Positions 17,168 to 63,060 of a stretch of DNA of 64,000 bases are shown here, in pieces; the stretch's first letter is position 1; the number at the start of each line of letters is the position of its first letter. Source of the DNA: Candidatus Coprenecus stercorigallinarum (lineage in GTDB: Bacteria; Bacteroidota; Bacteroidia; Bacteroidales; UBA932). The DNA is taken from contig DVIL01000036.1 of the NCBI GenBank assembly GCA_018711305.1, forward strand, positions 1 to 64,000. Reading direction: 5' to 3'. The notes beneath the pieces are model-generated. The model saw only the letters and a list, made by a program, of their open reading frames with translations, had not been told where the DNA came from and made no database searches. A program made the position numbers and the translations under genes.

Positions 17168-17214
17168 CTTCCGGATTCAACAATCTAATCCAACCGGCAT
17201 ATCACGTGCAACAG

Positions 17215-17252
17215 GAAGGTGACGATGAAACACCATTTTCGTCGGCACCTTC
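17215..17252 (+). repeat. 38-bp hairpin repeat, copy A
   Basis: GAAGGTGACGA, a 16-nt loop and TCGGCACCTTC form an imperfect stem of 11-bp arms. Seven more copies of exactly 38 bp occur at 28401, 39634, 39740, 39846, 39952, 61655 and 61761. The left flank (ATCACGTGCAAC) matches that of the 61655 copy, and the right flank (TTCTGGGCTACCTT) resembles that after the 61761 copy. This copy is therefore a one-hairpin version of the 61-kb element. The rest of the 17168-17482 gap holds one AGTCTGTTTT motif (17322) and nothing I can call a gene. Confidence 0.85.
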
Positions 17253-17482
17253 TGGGCTACCTTAAGCAATACGGAACAAGAAGAACCTCTTGTCAGAAAT
17301 CCCTCTGAGATTGGCTCTGAGGAGTCTGTTTTGGCGTTGAAGGGCTACGCCATGGCATTGGACGAGCGGAAATACGCCAGACATTGCTTGTGGAAGGGGA
17401 AGGGAGGTTCCAAACCGCTACCGCCTGCAAAGTACCTGCACCGTATCCTTCATTATTCCGGCTTCACTCCGGCCTCCATTCC

Positions 17483-25136: not shown

Positions 25137-25400
25137 AAACGGACCTCAATTTGCCACTATACATTTTCGTTATATTGCAGTCCGCTGACTGTCAATAATT
25201 TTCCAAATCATAAAAATGTAAGGACGACGAAAATATCTCAAAAAAGGGGCTTTTTAAGGGCTTCTAACATTTTTCGATTTTACAAATGTCTTGATTATAA
25301 ACATCTTTCAATTTAACTAAAATGTATAGTGGAATTAGGTGAGGCTTCTTAGGTTTCTTGCGCCCCTGGGGTATTTCTGTGGATAACCAAAGTACACTTG
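25137..25400 (+). repeat. Dispersed decayed repeat, copy 1
   Basis: This stretch (CACTATACATT, CTGACTGTCAATAATTT, ATCATAAAAATGTAA, GGACGACGAAAATATCTC, TTTTAAGGGCTTCT, CTTGCGCCCC, GTGGATAACCA) matches, motif by motif and in order, the region 62745-63060. Its last part also matches 60980-61030. No intact ORF lies in it; the 160-aa minus-strand ORF at 25349-25831 runs across the repeat and is rejected. It is probably the remnant of a mobile element. The rest of the 25020-25775 gap holds an inverted repeat AAGCGTTTT/AAAACGCTT (25075-25115) after the ferredoxin gene and nothing else recognisable. Confidence 0.65.
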
Positions 25401-25775
25401 AGAAAGTCAAGGAAGTCTCCTGATTTCGGGCAAGTGACGGGAAGAATACTGCACCCTGTTTTGAACGAATTTACTTCGGGGTGCGCAGTGGAGAAATACC
25501 CCATGTAAATCAGATAGTTACATAACGCGCTGCACATCTGACATCTTTTGAAACACGTCAAATGTGCAGCAAGATTTGCAGAGTACTGATTTTCAAACAG
25601 TTGAAAAACGGAGTGCACCACGAAGTAAATTCGTTCAATAATGCACTCAGCCTGGCCCCTACACAGTGCCTTCTGAGCGTGGCTTGAGGACAGCTGCTTG
25701 TCTTTCTGCAGTATGGTAGGTACGGTCAAATACGGACTGCAGCCGGCAGGCTGAGTCTTCCGAAGATGGAGAAAA

Positions 25776-26517: not shown

Positions 26518-28176
26518 TGATAAAGTAACTTTAATTGGCCCCAAAGGTACGCAAATACCAGTACAGTAGAAATTCTATACCCTCCAATCAAGCAGCCCGT
26601 AGGTGCAACGGAAGTTGAACTGCAAAGAGACAAGGCTGCGGACATGTGGCAAAGGGGCTTAGGTGAAACGGTCCCGGACATATGCTGAAGGCAGGGTGTG
26701 AACGAGACGAATTCCGCCTGAGCCCTTGTTAAAGGTCAGTGGCTGATATCGCCGGCAGCAACGGTAAGTAGAAGCACGCTGTTGTTTCACAATCGTCTGT
26801 TATGCAGACACTTGACAAACGGAGGCGTGCTTTCCGACCTGGAAAAACAAGTCGAAAAGATCACCTCTGTTTTGCAGCGTGCTTGTAATCAGCAATATGC
26901 AAAAACGGGGGTGCTGCACAGCATGCCGTTGTAAACTGCTAACATATCAATAATCCCAATTGACATCGATTCCATTTGGAACCTCCGCGCAACCCTAACA
27001 AAAGGCCTTGATTCCGGTGTTGAAAAATTCTGGTTCTTCCGACATTTCGAGTGTCGAGTGCTGAATCACCACGAGTGCTGTCTGTTTTTCATCACCGCCA
27101 TCAACTCTTTAATTATTAAGCTAATAGATAACATGCACGTTTACAGACACAATCTTAGCCCTTAAGCACATAGAGTCAGCGCATAGAGTCGAGTCTGAGC
27201 ACACAGAGTCTGTTTCTTTCATTTATGTGCAATTGCATGATTTTTAACATATTAGATAAAACATACCTTTACAGACACTGCAGGAACAAATGGAGTCTGT
27301 AGTTGGAACTTTGAAGCAATAAATTGGTAATCACGACAATACAAGTCTCATCCGAAAACAGACTGAAAAGCAGATACCATGGGGCAGGAATTAGACAGAT
27401 ACTGTTTCGCGGTGAGAGATGCCTACAATGGGGTTTTGAGAACACCCTTAGGTTTTGGTTTTTCGCAATGCTCCCACAAATTTTTCCACAACACCGGAAC
27501 CAAAGTCTGTCATGTGCGGAGTCTGTTTAATACTTACAGACACTCACTGATGTGGGCACTATCGAACTCATGCTAACGACAGACTAACAATAAAAAGTTC
27601 GTGCGACATTTCGCATGATTGTCGCATCACACGATATTCCGGATGAACCAAAATTCTCCGGAAGTATTTCTCCAGCCATTATAATTCCCGAAAGGCGAAT
27701 CCCCATCTCTCCGCAAAATTCCGTAATCCCTTTATTCGCAGTTTGTCAGATGACAACAGGCCTGAGACCGGGACCGAGACGGGTCAATGTTCAACCTCTT
27801 TTCTTCGGACAATACCTCATTGCCAGAAGAAAAAAATGTTTCTACTCAATCTTGCCGCCCGCTCTCCCTCTGTCTGCCTGAGGTAACTCATCTCGGAGTC
27901 CATATCGCCTTACCGCTCTCACTTCTGACCTAATCGCTCCCTTACTTGGAGCGAGTCTTTCTCTGTCGGTATTGCACTCCATTTTGGTCTCGGATTCGGT
28001 CTCGGATTCGGCCTCGGACTAGGTCTCGGACTTGCACCAGCCCCCTTCTACCGACCTGATGCCGCACCTCAAAGAGTCAGCATGTATACCGGCCTTTCAA
28101 ATTTTCTTGGAGTCTGTCTCTCTGGAGTATGTCTCTCCCTGCCGGTCACCTTTTGCTCCTTGCCGTCGCCTATTCT
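26518..28176. other. Gene-poor AT-rich island with AGTCTGT motifs
   Basis: About 1.7 kb without a credible gene. It contains at least seven exact copies of AGTCTGT or its complement (near 27206, 27294, 27358, 27504, 27520, 27582 and 28111). It also has three ACAGACAC sequences (near 27143, 27272 and 27535), far above the 0.2 or so expected for one heptamer on both strands. Short ORFs here (68, 65, 88 and 88 aa) show no domain, signal peptide or codon pattern I can recognise. Confidence 0.6.
27986..28033 (+). repeat. Four tandem 12-bp repeats
   Basis: Units GGTCTCGGATTC, GGTCTCGGATTC, GGCCTCGGACTA and GGTCTCGGACTT follow each other without spacers. One frame would encode a Gly-Leu/Phe repeat, but it sits in a short ORF with no start and no support as a gene. 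Confidence 0.8.
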
Positions 28177-28353: not shown

Positions 28354-28400
28354 GAGATGATGAATGCCATGCTGGAGCTGCAATTGCGCATACAACATCG

Positions 28401-28438
28401 GAAGGTGCCGATGAAATGCCAGTTTTGTCGGCACCTTT
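28401..28438 (+). repeat. 38-bp hairpin repeat, copy B
   Basis: GAAGGTGCCGA, 16 nt, TCGGCACCTTT: the same hairpin family as at 17215, with only the last stem base unpaired. It sits alone beside MITE copy 2. Confidence 0.8.
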
Positions 28439-32868: not shown

Positions 32869-33873
32869 CCAAATCGGTCATTGGAGACGGATTTGGTTCC
32901 AACGATATTTTACAGGGCGGTAAACACTTTTATTAACCAACTGAAGGTCAAACAGATGGCTTTTCCATACCTTGCCATGACCCCACTATGCTATTTGAAC
33001 GTGAATTCAAAATAAGCATCGGCATCAGAAAAAGACGGGTTGTCCGTCGTTGACGGGTAAGTATAGTTTGTGTATAGTTTGCACTCAGACCTTGTTAAGC
33101 TCGCTGTGTCCCGTCTATGCCTGTTCGTTGTGCATTGCCAATGCCAGTCTGTTTTGCCATATTTTGATTAACTTTCTTTTGTATAGAGATTTACTGGGAT
33201 ATACCTGCTACAGACTCACGGAATATGAGTTGGTGTGTGGATGTCAGAATGCTTTCAGAAGCGGTATAATCGGGTACGTACATCCATACATGCGTACATC
33301 CCATCCATACATGCATTCAGTCTGTTATGCATCGGCACACGTAATCAGCTGTTCCGCAGAAGTATACACAAACCAGCAGATTACAGACATGCATGTTGTC
33401 CCCACAGTCTGTAATCCGCATATCAGCATAACGCACTCAACAACTGTCGTTTACCAGAGTATTGCCATAACAGACTGGCAGCAGACTGCCCCCGGAGAAG
33501 TCCAGCAAGAGAGACGAATGGAAGTACCTGATATCCAGACACACTGAAAAAAGCCATCTGCTGGACTGTAGGCAAAATGACGGTTTTGATGCAAAACGTG
33601 CGGGGTCCAGCATGTCTCCGAAGACATATATGCTTGACAATAAGGAGAATACATTTCAAACCATTTGCTGGACATAGTAAAAGTGACAGATAGAATTTCA
33701 GAATAAGACGGCAACGGTAAGCGAAGCAACACATTGTTTTTCCATCTCCCTGGTACTCAAAATGTTGCTTATGAGCCGCGATCTTTTCGGGCTTCGCTAC
33801 CTGCCGCAAAGATCAACTGCATAATAGAAAGCATTTACTATCAATATATTGCGGTTCAAGGGTGCTCTTGTAC
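32869..33873. other. Gene-poor island with AGTCTGT motifs
   Basis: About 1 kb with no supported gene. Between 33120 and 33480 there are five exact AGTCTGT/ACAGACT copies (near 33146, 33210, 33319, 33406 and 33469). Short direct repeats such as CATACATGCGTACATCC/CATACATGCATTCAG are also present. The 165-aa ORF at 33050-33547 is rejected: it is rich in Cys and Tyr, has no domain, and its sequence is that of the motif-rich DNA. Confidence 0.55.
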
Positions 33874-39602: not shown

Positions 39603-39993
39603 TACGGACGAGGTCGCACAGTTGCGGGCACCGGAAGGTGACGATGAAACGCCGCTTTTGTCGGCACCTTCATGAAGGGAGCGCGGATGTATGGCCGGCA
39701 GAAGGGCCTACGGACGGAGTCGCACAGTTGCGGGTATCGGAAGGTGACGATGAAACGCCGTTTTTATCGGCACCTTCTTGAACGGAGCGCGGAAGTATGG
39801 CCGGCAGAAGGGCCTATGGACGGAGTCCCACAGTTGCGGGTACCGGAAGGTGACGATGAAAAGCCGCTTTCGTCGGCACCTTCTTGAACAGAGCGCGGAT
39901 GTATGGCCGGCAGAAGGGCCTATGGACGGAGTCCCACAGTTGCGGGCACCGGAAGGTGACGATGAAACGCCGTTTTTATCGGCACCTTCTTCA
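39603..39993 (+). repeat. Tandem array of 106-bp units carrying the 38-bp hairpin (copies C-F)
   Basis: Hairpins start at 39634, 39740, 39846 and 39952, exactly 106 bp apart. Between them is a conserved 68-bp spacer (GCGCGGATGTATGGCCGGCA, then GAAGGGCCTATGGACGGAGT, then CACAGTTGCGGG). The units differ by scattered point changes. Translated units give similar short peptides ending TPFLSAPS and a stop, but there is no start codon context, and hairpin constraint explains the similarity. The 39300-40229 gap contains no credible gene. Confidence 0.85.
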
Positions 39994-56740: not shown

Positions 56741-58120
56741 CTATCTTGTGCGGAGACGTAGGAATGACAGGCAAGAGGCGCAGACGACCAGTATGCCGGC
56801 AAGGAGCATAGCGCCATGCGGGGCCTTGTCTCCGAAGAGATGGAAAAGAAGGGCAACGAGGGCTGCGCCGGTGGCCTGGCCTGTCAGGCGGGCGGTGGAG
56901 AGCATGCCGCTTGCACTGCCGGCCCGGTGGTTGGGCGCGGAGCTCAGGAGCAGATGGTTGTTGGGCGACTGGAAGAATCCGAAACCGGCGCCGCAGAGGG
57001 CGAGTCTCCAGCCGAGGGCAAAGGGAGAAGCATCCACCGGCATCTGCGAGAGCAGGAAGCAGCCGGCACTCATAAGCAACAGACCGAAACCACCTAACAG
57101 GCCCGGGTGGATCTTGCCGCTCAGCGAGCCGGACAAAGGCGCCACGAACATCACTATGAACGGCCAGGCGGTCATTACGGCACCGGTCTCCACGGGATTC
57201 ATCCCGAAGGTATGCAGCAGCATGAAAGGCATGCCTACCAGCACCATCATCTGGGCAGTATATGAAACCACACTGGTTGTCACGGACATGGAGAAGGCCG
57301 GAATACGGAGCAGGTCAAAGGGCAGCATCGGATATCTGCGGCGGAGCTGACTGCGGATATACAGGAAACCCAGTACGAGCAGCACGGCAGCTGCCACAGC
57401 TACGACCGCAGGACTGACATCGTGCGAATACATCTCGATGCAGCCTATGAGAAGACCGAACACGGCGGCGTTGAGAAGGGCGTCCCCGATATGGAAACGG
57501 CGTCCGACGATATGAGTGGGATTGTCAGGGAGGAAACGCCACCCCATCAGGAATGTCACTATCCCCACCGGGATATTGATGGCGAACAGCCAGGGCCAGG
57601 AGGCGAAAGACAGTATGGCGGCCGCTATCGACGGACCGGACACGGCCGACAGGGCCACCACGGTGGCATTGATTCCCACCCCCTTGCCGAAATGCCGCCT
57701 GGGAAACACCAGTTTGGCCACGGAGGTATTGACACTCATCATCATCGCCGCCCCAAGCCCCTGGAATGCCCTGGATGCCACGAGCATAAGCAGACTGTGG
57801 GAAACCGTGCAGAGAACGGATGCCACCGTAAACACGGCCACTCCCGACAGATACACTTTTTTATAGCTGTACAGTTCCCCGAGCGTCGAGAAGGGCAGCA
57901 GGGCCATCATCACCACGAGCTGGAAAGCATTGACCACCCATATCGAGTCAGCAGGCGAGACACCGAGTTCCTGCGCTATCACCGGCAGGGCCACATTGCA
58001 GATATTGCCGTCCACCACCGACAGGAAGATGCCGCACCACACCGCGCCCATGGCATAGAAAAGCTGCGGCCTGTGCAGACCGTCCCACTCCAGATTGCCG
58101 GTGATCCTTTCTTCTTCCAT
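56741..58120 (-). CDS. MFS transporter, DHA2 (EmrB/QacA-like) family, copy 1
   Basis: The protein is 459 aa from MEEERITGNLEWDGLHRPQL at 58120. Fourteen-helix DHA2 signs are GIFLSVVDGNICNVALPVIA, DSIWVVNAFQLVVMMALLPF and LGAAMMMSVNTSVAKLVF. It probably exports drugs or other amphiphilic compounds with protons. A -7 box TACATTTG (minus strand, 58139-58146) lies 19 bp upstream, although the gene also follows its paralogue by only 33 bp. The two copies align along their whole length and arose by tandem duplication. Confidence 0.9.
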   Translation of the reverse strand: MEEERITGNLEWDGLHRPQLFYAMGAVWCGIFLSVVDGNICNVALPVIAQELGVSPADSIWVVNAFQLVVMMALLPFSTLGELYSYKKVYLSGVAVFTVASVLCTVSHSLLMLVASRAFQGLGAAMMMSVNTSVAKLVFPRRHFGKGVGINATVVALSAVSGPSIAAAILSFASWPWLFAINIPVGIVTFLMGWRFLPDNPTHIVGRRFHIGDALLNAAVFGLLIGCIEMYSHDVSPAVVAVAAAVLLVLGFLYIRSQLRRRYPMLPFDLLRIPAFSMSVTTSVVSYTAQMMVLVGMPFMLLHTFGMNPVETGAVMTAWPFIVMFVAPLSGSLSGKIHPGLLGGFGLLLMSAGCFLLSQMPVDASPFALGWRLALCGAGFGFFQSPNNHLLLSSAPNHRAGSASGMLSTARLTGQATGAALVALLFHLFGDKAPHGAMLLAGILVVCASCLSFLRLRTR

Positions 58121-58153
58121 TTTACTGCGTGACTTCGGCAAATGTACGCAAAT

Positions 58154-59584
58154 TTACTTTACGGGAGAACGCAGCCCGAGTCGGCTGACAGAGGAAAGGG
58201 CGCCGCAGATGGTGAGGATGCCGGCCAGGAGCATGGCATCGTGGGGAGCACCGTCTCCGAAAAGATGGAAGAAGAGGGCGACGAGGGCCGCACCGGTGGA
58301 CTGGCCTACGAGGCGGGCCGTTGCAAGCATGCCTCCCGCACTGCCGGCACGGTAGTTGGGCGCGGAACTCAGAAGCATGTGGTTGTTGGGCGACTGGAAG
58401 AAACCGAATCCGGCCCCGCACATCATCAGCCGCCATGCAATGTCCAGATGCGAGGCGTTCTCAGGAACAAATGCAAGCAGGAAACAGCCGGCACTCATCA
58501 GCAGCAGGCCGAAACATCCCAGCACTCCGGGATGCACCCTGCCTATGAGCGAGCCGGCCAGCGGGGCCACGAACACGATGACCAGCGGCCAGGAAGTCAT
58601 CAGCAGTCCGGTCTCCACGGCATTCATCCCGAAAGTATGCAGGAGCATGAACGGTATGGCCACCATTGCCGTCATCTGGGCGGTAAAGGAGATAATGCTG
58701 GTAATCACCGACATCGAGAATACGGGGATACGGAGCAGGTCGAACGGCAGCATGGGCCAGCGGCGGCGGAGCTGGGTCCGCACGTAGATGCTGCCCAGGA
58801 CAACCAGCAGGGCGACCCCGACAAGCACCGTAACGGACTTCGCCCCGTGCGAATACATCTCGATGCAGCCTATCAGCAGTCCGAAGACGGCGGCATTGAG
58901 CAGGCCGTCCCGGATATTGAAATGCCGTCCCTCGATGTGGGTAGGATTGTCCGGCAGATGCTTGAATGCCATGAAGAACGTCACTATTCCCACCGGAATG
59001 TTGATTGCGAAGAGCCAGGGCCAGGAGGCGAACGAAAGAATACCTGCCGCAACCGTAGGACCGGCCACCGAGGCAAGGGCCACCACCGTGGCGTTAAGCC
59101 CCACTCCCCTGCCCAGGTACTTTTTGGGATAGGTGATTTTCACAAGAGTGGTATTGACACTCATCATCATCGCCGCACCCAGCCCCTGGAACGCCCTTGA
59201 GGCGACCAGAAGCGGCAGCGTATGCGACAGGGCGCAGAACAGCGAGCCGACTGTGAACAGTACCGTCCCCGAGACATACACCCGCTTGTAGCTCAGCAGC
59301 TCCCCGATGGAGGAGAACGACAGCAGGGTCATCATGATCACCAGCTGGAACGAGTTGACCACCCAGATGGAGTCCGCAGACGACACCCCAAGCTCCTGCG
59401 AGATGGTAGGCAGGGCCACATTGCAGATATTGCCGTCCATCACCGAGAGAAAAATCCCGCACCACAGCGAGGCCACCGCATAGTAAATCTTCGGGCGGGA
59501 CAGACCGTCCCACTCCAGATTGCCGGTGATGTGCTCTTCCGGTTCAACTGCCGTATTCACCCCCTTTTTCATGTGCATGTGCAT
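58154..59584 (-). CDS. MFS transporter, DHA2 (EmrB/QacA-like) family, copy 2
   Basis: The protein is about 476 aa. Three closely spaced ATGs (59584, 59578 and 59572; MHMHMKKGVNTAVEPEE) are possible; the track's 59659 start lies upstream of the -7 box TATCTTTG (minus strand, 59603-59610) and is rejected. It shares ITGNLEWDGLSRPKIYYAVA, GIFLSVMDGNICNVALPTIS and DSIWVVNSFQLVIMMTLLSF with copy 1. It is the promoter-proximal member of the tandem pair. The substrate is unknown. No regulator gene is adjacent. Confidence 0.9.
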   Translation of the reverse strand: MHMHMKKGVNTAVEPEEHITGNLEWDGLSRPKIYYAVASLWCGIFLSVMDGNICNVALPTISQELGVSSADSIWVVNSFQLVIMMTLLSFSSIGELLSYKRVYVSGTVLFTVGSLFCALSHTLPLLVASRAFQGLGAAMMMSVNTTLVKITYPKKYLGRGVGLNATVVALASVAGPTVAAGILSFASWPWLFAINIPVGIVTFFMAFKHLPDNPTHIEGRHFNIRDGLLNAAVFGLLIGCIEMYSHGAKSVTVLVGVALLVVLGSIYVRTQLRRRWPMLPFDLLRIPVFSMSVITSIISFTAQMTAMVAIPFMLLHTFGMNAVETGLLMTSWPLVIVFVAPLAGSLIGRVHPGVLGCFGLLLMSAGCFLLAFVPENASHLDIAWRLMMCGAGFGFFQSPNNHMLLSSAPNYRAGSAGGMLATARLVGQSTGAALVALFFHLFGDGAPHDAMLLAGILTICGALSSVSRLGLRSPVK

Positions 59585-59702
59585 GCAGATATTGACAGCG
59601 GGCAAAGATATACAAAACCCATTAACGATATGCCGGTATGGCGGTATGCAAACCATCAAATGAAAAAAATGCTATTTTTGAGGAAAGTTTAATTTTACTA
59701 TC

Positions 59703-61035: not shown

Positions 61036-61538
61036 TTTTCTATGCAAAACCCTTTAACCCTTTAACGATACGACAGTTACCACTCCGGCCGAGCACCTCA
61101 TCATCGCCTTTTACTCGCTTGCCAGATTCAGCCGGCCTGTCTCAACTGACCTGCCCGACTCAAATTGCCTGCTTGGCTTGCCAGACTCCCCAGACTCCCT
61201 ATGAGTCTGTTTCTGCGACTTACTGTACAAGTGATTGAAAACAAGTAGATTCCCTTGATACGCAATATAACAGACTGCCAGCGTAAAGACCCTGTCTGTT
61301 TTACCATAATTCATGCATATCACTATCCTACAAGCACTTGGTGTCAACATACCGAAACAGACTTGCCTGGGAAAAAGAACCCGATAGACTCACACCCGCC
61401 TTACAATGCTTCCTGACATAGATCTCGGGCAAAATCTGCCCAACCCCTTTTCTCAGTCTGTTTTCTACATTTTAGCACAACTTATTTATTTACAGAAAAA
61501 TATGCCCGCTCATCGATTACAGACTTCTGACAGAAACA
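61036..61538. other. Gene-poor stretch with AGTCTGT motifs
   Basis: No gene supported. Exact AGTCTGT/ACAGACT occurs five times (near 61204, 61269, 61357, 61455 and 61519), often extended to AGTCTGTTT. The 79-aa ORF here has no recognisable feature. The right end is the AGAAACA target duplication of the next element. Confidence 0.55.
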
Positions 61539-61654
61539 GGGGTCAGTAGAAATTCAGCGAGGATAAATTTCTACTGTTACCTGAATTGCACTTTGGTCGA
61601 CAAACCGGCTCACAGCCCATGTCATTCAACACTACACCGCATCACGTGTAACCG

Positions 61655-61692
61655 GAAGGTGACGATGAAACGACACTTTCGTCGGCACCTTC
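61655..61692 (+). repeat. 38-bp hairpin repeat, copy G
   Basis: GAAGGTGACGA, 16 nt, TCGGCACCTTC. It lies inside the 372-bp element, and the next copy starts exactly 106 bp later. Confidence 0.85.
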
Positions 61693-61760
61693 AGCGGGGG
61701 GATACGGTGACAAGGCCGTCAGAAGGACCTGCGGACGGGGTTCCACGGCTGCGGGTGCCG

Positions 61761-61798
61761 GAAGGTGCCGATGAAACGCCATTTTCGTCGGCACATTC
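61761..61798 (+). repeat. 38-bp hairpin repeat, copy H
   Basis: GAAGGTGCCGA, 16 nt, TCGGCACATTC, with one stem mismatch. The 68-bp spacer between copies G and H is recognisably related to the 39.6-kb array spacers (GGCCGTCAGAAGGACCTGCG). Confidence 0.8.
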
Positions 61799-62241: not shown

Positions 62242-62346
62242 CGTGTTTAGTGGCGTTCACAGTTCTATGACCCGCTCCTTAGTCCGGTCAAGGAAAGGGT
62301 GTTCCTCCGTGTTTAGTGGCGTTCACAGTTCTATGACCCGCTCCTT
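62242..62346 (+). repeat. Two 39-bp direct repeats separated by 27 bp (66-bp period)
   Basis: Perfect repeats at 62242-62280 and 62308-62346 begin CGTGTTTAGTGGCGTTCACA and end ATGACCCGCTCCTT. The spacer is unique. Repeat length and period resemble a minimal CRISPR array (36-bp repeat plus 30-nt spacer). An AT-rich stretch with a promoter-like TTG-N18-GAACTTTG lies upstream. No cas gene is in the window and there are only two repeats, so a simple duplication is as likely. Confidence 0.8.
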
Positions 62347-62461: not shown

Positions 62462-63060
62462 TAGGTATTCAATGTTCGAATTATTTAGAAGAATTGCAAT
62501 AGACCAAAAGTTACGGGACCATGAAGCACACTCCAAGCTCACAATGCATTGAATCACAGTGTTTTGCCAAAACATTCGCTGCCCTACGGCCTGTCTTTTC
62601 CGACCATAGAGCATCTAAATATATTACAATGCACTTATTATAGGCACATTACGATTTCAAGACATTCTTCATGGGCTGGTGATATGGGTAAGCCGATATT
62701 AACGTCGAGGACAGAAAAGCAGTCCTTCTATAAAATTCCGTGGTCCAATTTGTCACTATACATTGTCGTTGTATTGCTGTCCACTTACTGTCAATAATTT
62801 CAAAAATCATAAAAATGTAAAGTGCCGTTTCCTAAAAAAGGTTGACTCAAACTGTCCTATCCTGAAGAAAAAAGTTGATTCAGTTAATAAAAATCTTATT
62901 CCTAAAAAGAGGAGGACGGAAATATCTCTATAAAGGGTCATTTTAAGGGCTTCTTACATTTTGCAGTTTGCGGACATCCCGATTATCTGCACTTTTCAAT
63001 TCAACGAGTGAAGTTAAAGGAGGCTTCCTGCGGCCCAGGGAGTGCGGATAGCCATTTCGG
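62462..63060 (+). repeat. Dispersed decayed repeat, long copy
   Basis: The left end (GGTATTCAATGTTCGAATTA, ACCAAAAGTTACGGGACCAT) matches 60875-60950. The right part (CACTATACATTG, ACTGTCAATAATTT, ATCATAAAAATGTAA, GGAAATATCTC, TTTTAAGGGCTTCT, GCGGATAGCCATTT) matches 25150-25395. The left end could encode MFELFRRIAIDQKLRDHEAH in frame, but no full ORF follows. It is probably the remains of a mobile element; the family is unknown. Confidence 0.6.

Follow-up and report, generated by a model that had tools for sequence, protein, structure and literature searches.

The AGTCTGT-rich islands in the window, that is, the whole 64,000-nucleotide stretch of contig DVIL01000036.1 (Candidatus Coprenecus stercorigallinarum), are arrays of a long dyad unit, and these arrays, which have spread between the genes of one Coprenecus clade, probably represent REPIN/BIME-like repeats that belong with a domesticated-type, REP-associated Y1 (HUH) transposase specific to that lineage. 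The evidence comes from the build and helical spacing of the units, their conservation at orthologous loci, and the transposase gene that they frame.

Heptamer islands and the dyad unit

The window contains AGTCTGT/ACAGACT 23 times; dinucleotide shuffles average 6.2 and never reach 23. Three islands hold 17 of the 23 copies (7 at 27.2–28.1 kb, 5 at 33.1–33.5 kb, and 5 at 61.2–61.5 kb). The six copies beyond the islands are at chance level, one of them lying at 17323, where the initial annotation had placed an extra copy at 17322. The excess that it had claimed is borne out, the islands are non-coding as it had stated, and its extension of the motif to (G/C)AGTCTGTTT agrees with, and arises from, a preference for C/G immediately outside the heptamer. 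Its description of the motif as "not in a fixed tandem pattern" has to be abandoned, since the heptamers are inverted pairs forming a unit of 71–73 bp.

AGTCTGT is the outer box of this unit, which has the consensus WGTCTGTWWT-N6-AWTT-N3-TAW-N4-CTG followed by the mirror image; in 46 non-redundant 71-mers, the weak AWTT occupies columns 17–20, TAW columns 24–26, and CTG columns 31–33. Paired heptamers have 57 bp between them (58–59 bp in some units) and lie 64 bp apart from start to start, so that two inverted half-sites of ~35 bp make up one 71-bp dyad unit. Genome-wide counts, obtained by pattern searches of the window's own genome, gave 18 forward and 15 reverse matches to AGTCTGT-N45-70-ACAGACW and 0 for the reversed control. 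With a half-site profile built from units across the genus, the window yielded exactly nine units, and its reversed version yielded none. The features are as follows, with strand given where one was assigned:

27079–27364: array 1, three dyad units, gaps 57 and 16 bp (profile scan and own-genome pattern search)
27079–27149: array 1 unit, 71 bp, TGTCTGT ... ACAGACA (profile score 33.9)
27207–27277: array 1 unit, 71 bp, AGTCTGT ... ACAGACA (profile score 45.9)
27294–27364: array 1 unit, 71 bp, AGTCTGT ... ACAGACT (profile score 43.3)
27504–27585: three stray heptamers (27504, 27520, 27579), below a full unit by profile
33146–33476: array 2, three dyad units, gaps 102 and 16 bp (profile scan)
33146–33216: array 2 unit, 71 bp (profile score 54.0)
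33319–33389: array 2 unit, 71 bp (profile score 44.9)
33406–33476: array 2 unit, 71 bp (profile score 52.2)
61204–61525, plus strand: array 3, unit-16-unit-91-unit, 322 bp, the commonest arrangement (profile scan, aligned with other arrays of the genus)
61204–61276: array 3 unit, 73 bp (profile score 29.0)
61277–61292: 16-bp junction joining adjacent array 3 units, weak dyad GNRGG-N6-CCYNC across arrays
61293–61363: array 3 unit, 71 bp (profile score 36.8)
61364–61454, plus strand: 91-bp spacer of array 3, weakly alignable with spacers at other loci
61455–61525: array 3 unit, 71 bp (profile score 46.5)

The stray heptamers at 27504–27585 are probably a decayed or rearranged unit, and the 91-bp spacer, being weakly alignable across loci, is probably of common ancestry.

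The dyad-paired positions are essentially without covariation over the 46 non-redundant units, a single pair (25/47) exceeding the shuffles (p 0.002), and base-pair covariation was likewise essentially absent from the 16-bp junction across 34 junctions. For most single units, folding is somewhat better than for shuffled sequences. Judged from this pattern, the unit would resemble a site for two-fold protein recognition of double-stranded DNA, with short single-strand pairing as a possible addition. The half-site consensus lacks the GTAG foot, and there is no REP hairpin of that type.

Array spacing and helical phase

Arrays consist of two to five units and are most often arranged as unit-16-unit-91-unit, 322 bp in total. 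The 158 gaps fall at 15–17, 38, 49, 57–59, 69, 79–82, 90–93, 100–104, and 124 bp, and gaps above 20 bp are fitted best by a period of 10.8 bp, the length of one helical turn (R 0.89); the distinct gap values alone still gave R 0.79, matched by 0 of 5000 random sets. At the fructokinase locus, a deletion has left an inter-unit spacer of genome G013 10 bp shorter than in G016 and G003, with the phase kept. To judge from these spacings, all units of an array appear to face one side of the helix.

Distribution, dispersal, and conservation

As far as found, the arrays are confined to one clade of Candidatus Coprenecus (Rikenellaceae). A scan for the two-unit pattern through the genomes of 84,980 species returned 47 stretches, all from Coprenecus records or uncultured Bacteroidales bins (including CALUPK and CALVDF), and the pattern had no match in viral contigs; neither plasmid nor phage homologs of the arrays were found. 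Most genomes of the genus have the paired pattern; the family's other genera show no more than background. Genomes carry roughly 7–20 arrays each, G001, G004, G007, and G010 being array-less within the genus, with a diverged FKBP (64–73% identity).

Within one genome, arrays from different loci can be aligned, the similarity of several pairs stopping at the outer boxes, and paralogous arrays have the 91-bp spacer in common; the arrays were therefore dispersed as blocks. Turnover between species is high, and some loci, e.g., beside fructokinase, keep their array across several species. At the FKBP locus an array is found in six species, three of which have lost part of it (G003, G011, and, to a small extent, G016), and is absent in G009. 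No clean empty site was found, the FKBP locus being too diverged in array-less species for such a comparison. Downstream of array 2, the window has a variable region, the GH109 locus; other species are array-less there, with no counterpart of array 2 at their GH109 gene. Two observations can be recorded here: at the FKBP locus (L138, L143), the G003 deletion joins near two outer boxes and the G011 deletion fuses the left half of one unit to the right half of another, and in G005 (L081 4714–6211) two similar arrays, 87% identical, lie 850 bp apart on one contig.

In orthologous arrays defined by their flanks, the inner motif columns change by 8.0%, the remaining inner columns by 19.2%, and the sequence outside by 24.4%. 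Controlling for base composition leaves the contrast intact (6.1% at A/T motif positions versus 17.9%, sequence pairs within a group being non-independent); it is seen in 8 of 11 ortholog groups, and the other three have few changes. The contact positions are selectively conserved in place. Taken with the helix-locked spacing, this conservation suggests that selection acts partly on double-stranded nucleoprotein assembly.

The probable Y1 transposase partner

All array-bearing genomes have matches to PF01797 (Y1_Tnp), and the only genomes without one are the four array-less outgroup genomes, for which a tuned Y1 profile gave 0, 0, 1, and 1 weak matches. Arrays adjoin 7 of the 41 Y1 genes examined. 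At all seven loci units lie 83–275 bp upstream of the Y1 gene, and at five of them further units follow ~1.1 kb past its end, beyond the fructokinase gene, the other two having units upstream only within the DNA examined. The seven array-flanked genes form one clade (clade X; support 100/98), and array adjacency is one change on the Y1 tree, a value reached by 0 of 500 label shuffles; since the seven genes are orthologous at one locus, this adjacency counts as one historical event.

The clade-X transposase is about 300–335 aa long with a helical C-terminal region, and it has an invariant NHYH (HUH motif) and a tyrosine motif Y[IV]LRN of the YILRNP type. The PF01797 score of the G003 protein is 24.7 bits (cut-off 23), one clade member falling just below the cut-off, and NCBIfam REP_Tyr_transpos scored clade X at 30–35 bits, below its cut-off of 80. 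The best solved-structure match was E. coli TnpA-REP (PDB 4ER8; sequence profile, E 0.035), and the predicted fold matches this structure of TnpA-REP bound to a REP hairpin with E 4.5e-5 and a probability of 1.00. Only the N-terminal half of the clade-X protein aligns with TnpA-REP, the C-terminal helical region being without a counterpart.

A variant of the heptamer accompanies one transposase subclade. In G006 and G015 the clade-X gene is framed by TATCTGT/AATCTGT units, and their transposases are sisters (support 96/87). Units of the form TATCTGT-N57-ACAGATA number 25 in G006, 32 in G015, 2 in G011, 1 in G017, and 0 in the others; in G006 and G015 they make a uniform element, unit-37-unit, in which 37 is 16 plus two turns. 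G015, seemingly array-less, uses the TATCTGT heptamer instead, and G006 retains a few AGTCTGT arrays. The repeat heptamer co-varies with the transposase subclade, in a single event. This switch from AGTCTGT to TATCTGT together with the transposase offers a ready-made natural specificity test.

The window's genome, 94% complete, lacks an intact clade-X gene. The nearest Y1 protein it encodes, C87, falls in a different clade that has no such arrays, and tblastn detected no convincing transposase remnant at the fructokinase locus of this genome, where arrays lie on both sides. The clade-X gene is also absent from the draft assemblies of array-bearing G008, G011, G012, G014, and G018, and present as a short remnant in G005 and a truncated copy in G002. 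Since these genomes are drafts, 81–99% complete, such absence is provisional. With no cognate gene in their genome, the three arrays of the window look orphaned and are probably orphaned copies. As a separate observation, the fructokinase gene between arrays in the own genome (L054 5152–7459) appears inverted relative to G003 (L063 114–2984), and the transposase gene is missing, possibly an array-bounded rearrangement.

Proposed mechanism and comparison with known systems

In REP/REPIN systems with RAYTs, the Y1 gene is framed by repeats, the repeats are extragenic and inverted, and repeat and transposase co-vary (PMC2817692, PMC6006769). The Coprenecus arrays resemble these REP/BIME/REPIN plus RAYT (TnpA-REP) systems, or "REPtrons", in being dispersed, extragenic, and set in inverted pairs or clusters, in framing the Y1 gene on both sides with the same repeats (five of seven loci), in the co-variation of repeat and transposase, and in the occurrence within single genomes of several transposase paralogs, of which several have a repeat family of their own. 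From known RAYT biology (PMC2817692, PMC6006769) we infer binding, cleavage, and mobilization: the transposase, or its helical C-terminal region, would bind the half-sites as a dimer, its single-strand nuclease activity would copy arrays to new sites, and helically phased units could load several dimers into one complex.

The differences are nevertheless considerable. Where REP is a hairpin of 20–40 nt, the Coprenecus repeat is a dyad of 71 bp whose contact boxes are short; it is without a GT[AG]G foot and without overall base-pair covariation, and it is strictly phased to the helix. The clade-X protein, with its helical C-terminal half, is also longer than RAYTs of about 150–200 aa. Some TnpA-Y1 subclasses are flanked by "atypical secondary structures" (PMC6006769), and therefore the missing hairpin and foot exclude only the canonical REP class. 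By analogy, the system would work like REPIN/RAYT but differ from canonical REP. TnpA-Y1 subclass 2.6 (Bertels group 5), found mostly in Bacteroidetes and flanked by atypical structures with copies elsewhere (PMC6006769), may be the nearest described relative, compared by description; it differs in its median of 179 aa and its NH[LIV]H / WQ / YIH[QN]NP motifs, against about 300–335 aa, NHYH, and YILRNP in clade X.

Several points count against the REPIN/RAYT interpretation: an intact cognate gene is missing from the window's genome and from several other array-bearing drafts, the heptamer switch and the gene adjacency are each a single event, G006 retains a few AGTCTGT arrays, neither target-site duplications nor clean empty sites were found, a REP hairpin with a GTAG foot is lacking, and Y1 action on single-stranded hairpins alone leaves the double-strand helical phasing unexplained. 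Conceivably, the arrays are a distinct type of transposase-linked repeat, in which large double-stranded dyads are recognized cooperatively by a long TnpA-Y1 carrying an extra helical domain; the mobile repeat would then also be a multi-dimer nucleoprotein platform whose helical register selection maintains, and several paralogous pairs of this sort would exist side by side in the genus, at unit spacings of ~8, 10, 11, and 12 turns. Multi-dyad synaptic sites, resolvase res sites among them, also have several dyad subsites in helical register; unlike in res sites, the Coprenecus half-sites are far longer and the copies many and dispersed. The arrays touch on an old REP/RAYT puzzle, the joint persistence of single-copy transposases and numerous extragenic repeats.

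Of the functions suggested in the initial annotation, a protein-binding site was partly right, in that contact positions are selectively conserved and a Y1 transposase clade is linked to the arrays, and so was the relic of an expanded repeat, the units being dispersed repeats; a replication or segregation signal found no support, as parS occurs independently of the arrays and the neighbor genes are unrelated. The 71-bp dyad, the helical spacing, and the transposase link had been overlooked.

Alternative explanations

The arrays might instead serve as docking sites for a chromosomal protein that binds DNA in an architectural or nucleoid-organizing role and is unrelated to the transposase, whose locus would contain arrays by chance. 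Helical phasing on double-stranded DNA, the conservation of contact positions at orthologous loci, and the persistence of arrays at the same loci across several species, such as beside fructokinase, all fit such a role, as does the number of arrays per genome, roughly 7–20 being reminiscent of site-specific chromosome-organizing systems. Nevertheless, this explanation is unlikely, given that the transposase gene lies at a conserved locus and is framed by arrays, that the heptamer switches with the subclade, that turnover between species is high, and that the common spacer ancestry across arrays bespeaks block copying, while HU-HIG distribution does not track the arrays and parS is present independently of them.

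That the arrays are transcriptional operators, through which a regulator would act on neighbor genes via phased upstream sites, is very unlikely. Sites of cooperative repressors and activators are typically phased dyads, but the arrays have no preference for gene starts over gene ends, 5′ and 3′ distances being alike (p 0.49), and their flanking genes are unrelated (fumarase, MATE transporter, FKBP, PriA, phosphoglycerate kinase, transporters, and others). Very unlikely, too, are conventional MITEs of a DDE transposon with the outer half-sites as terminal inverted repeats: the blocks do end at outer boxes and the copies are dispersed and intergenic, but 62 arrays had no target-site duplication above shuffled pairs, the supposed ends are also present internally, plasmid, phage, and viral-contig matches are lacking, and the framed gene is Y1, not DDE. 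A structured non-coding RNA or RNA hairpin element (terminator or BOX-like repeat) is suggested by the complementary outer boxes and the somewhat better folding of most single units, but is extremely improbable given the lack of overall covariation in units and junctions and of any Rfam match.

Several further candidates were rejected. A tRNA-like 71-mer with a 7-bp acceptor stem was considered because of the unit length, and ARAGORN found none. The chromosome partition site parS (TGTTCCACGTGGAACA) occurs in genomes with and without arrays (10 of 19 genomes of the genus), and the distribution of tyrosine recombinases and of HU-HIG, as possible binders, does not follow the arrays across the 19 genomes. 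CRISPR and integron attC arrays differ in kind, the Coprenecus units being inverted dyads 16–124 bp apart with no cassettes and with ordinary neighbor genes.

Other repeat families in the genus and the window

Several other Y1 clades are framed by inverted repeats of their own (AGTCCAGC-N53, CCTAACAT-N51, ACATTTT-N45, GTTCACCTGCG, CACCTTC, and ACTCCTTC), and such parallel repeat families in one genus provide a comparative system in Bacteroidales. Directly after array 2, the window has two GTCCAGC dyads (33500–33673; N53 and N55, 105 bp apart), and the GTCCAGC dyad also stands on either side of a further Y1 gene in the window's genome (contig C78, L182 819–2009). A hairpin repeat, GAAGGTG..CGATGAAA..TCGGCACCTTC, has eight copies, tandem at 106 bp, located in the window at 17201–17252, 28387–28438, 39620–39989, and 61641–61798; CACCTTC repeats adjoin Y1 genes of other clades (L195, L196, L200, L209, L210, and L213). 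At 25147–25376, ACATTTT-N45-AAAATGT dyads lie 106 bp apart with ends CCACTATACATTTT / AAAATGTATAGTGG; copies of this element are found at 62746–62969 of the window and L055 3724–3887, and the dyad also stands upstream of Y1 genes L198 and L205.

Three further features of the window lie apart from these families. At 25404–25743 there is a dispersed intergenic element with the inverted repeat GAACGAATTTACTTCG and no recognized gene, which has copies at L055 5233–5567 and L056 3528–3920. A perfect 39-bp direct repeat, its copies 66 bp apart, occupies non-coding DNA at 62242–62346, and the stretch 56741–59659 holds tandem paralogous genes, 1425 bp apart, with stretches that are 72–84% identical.
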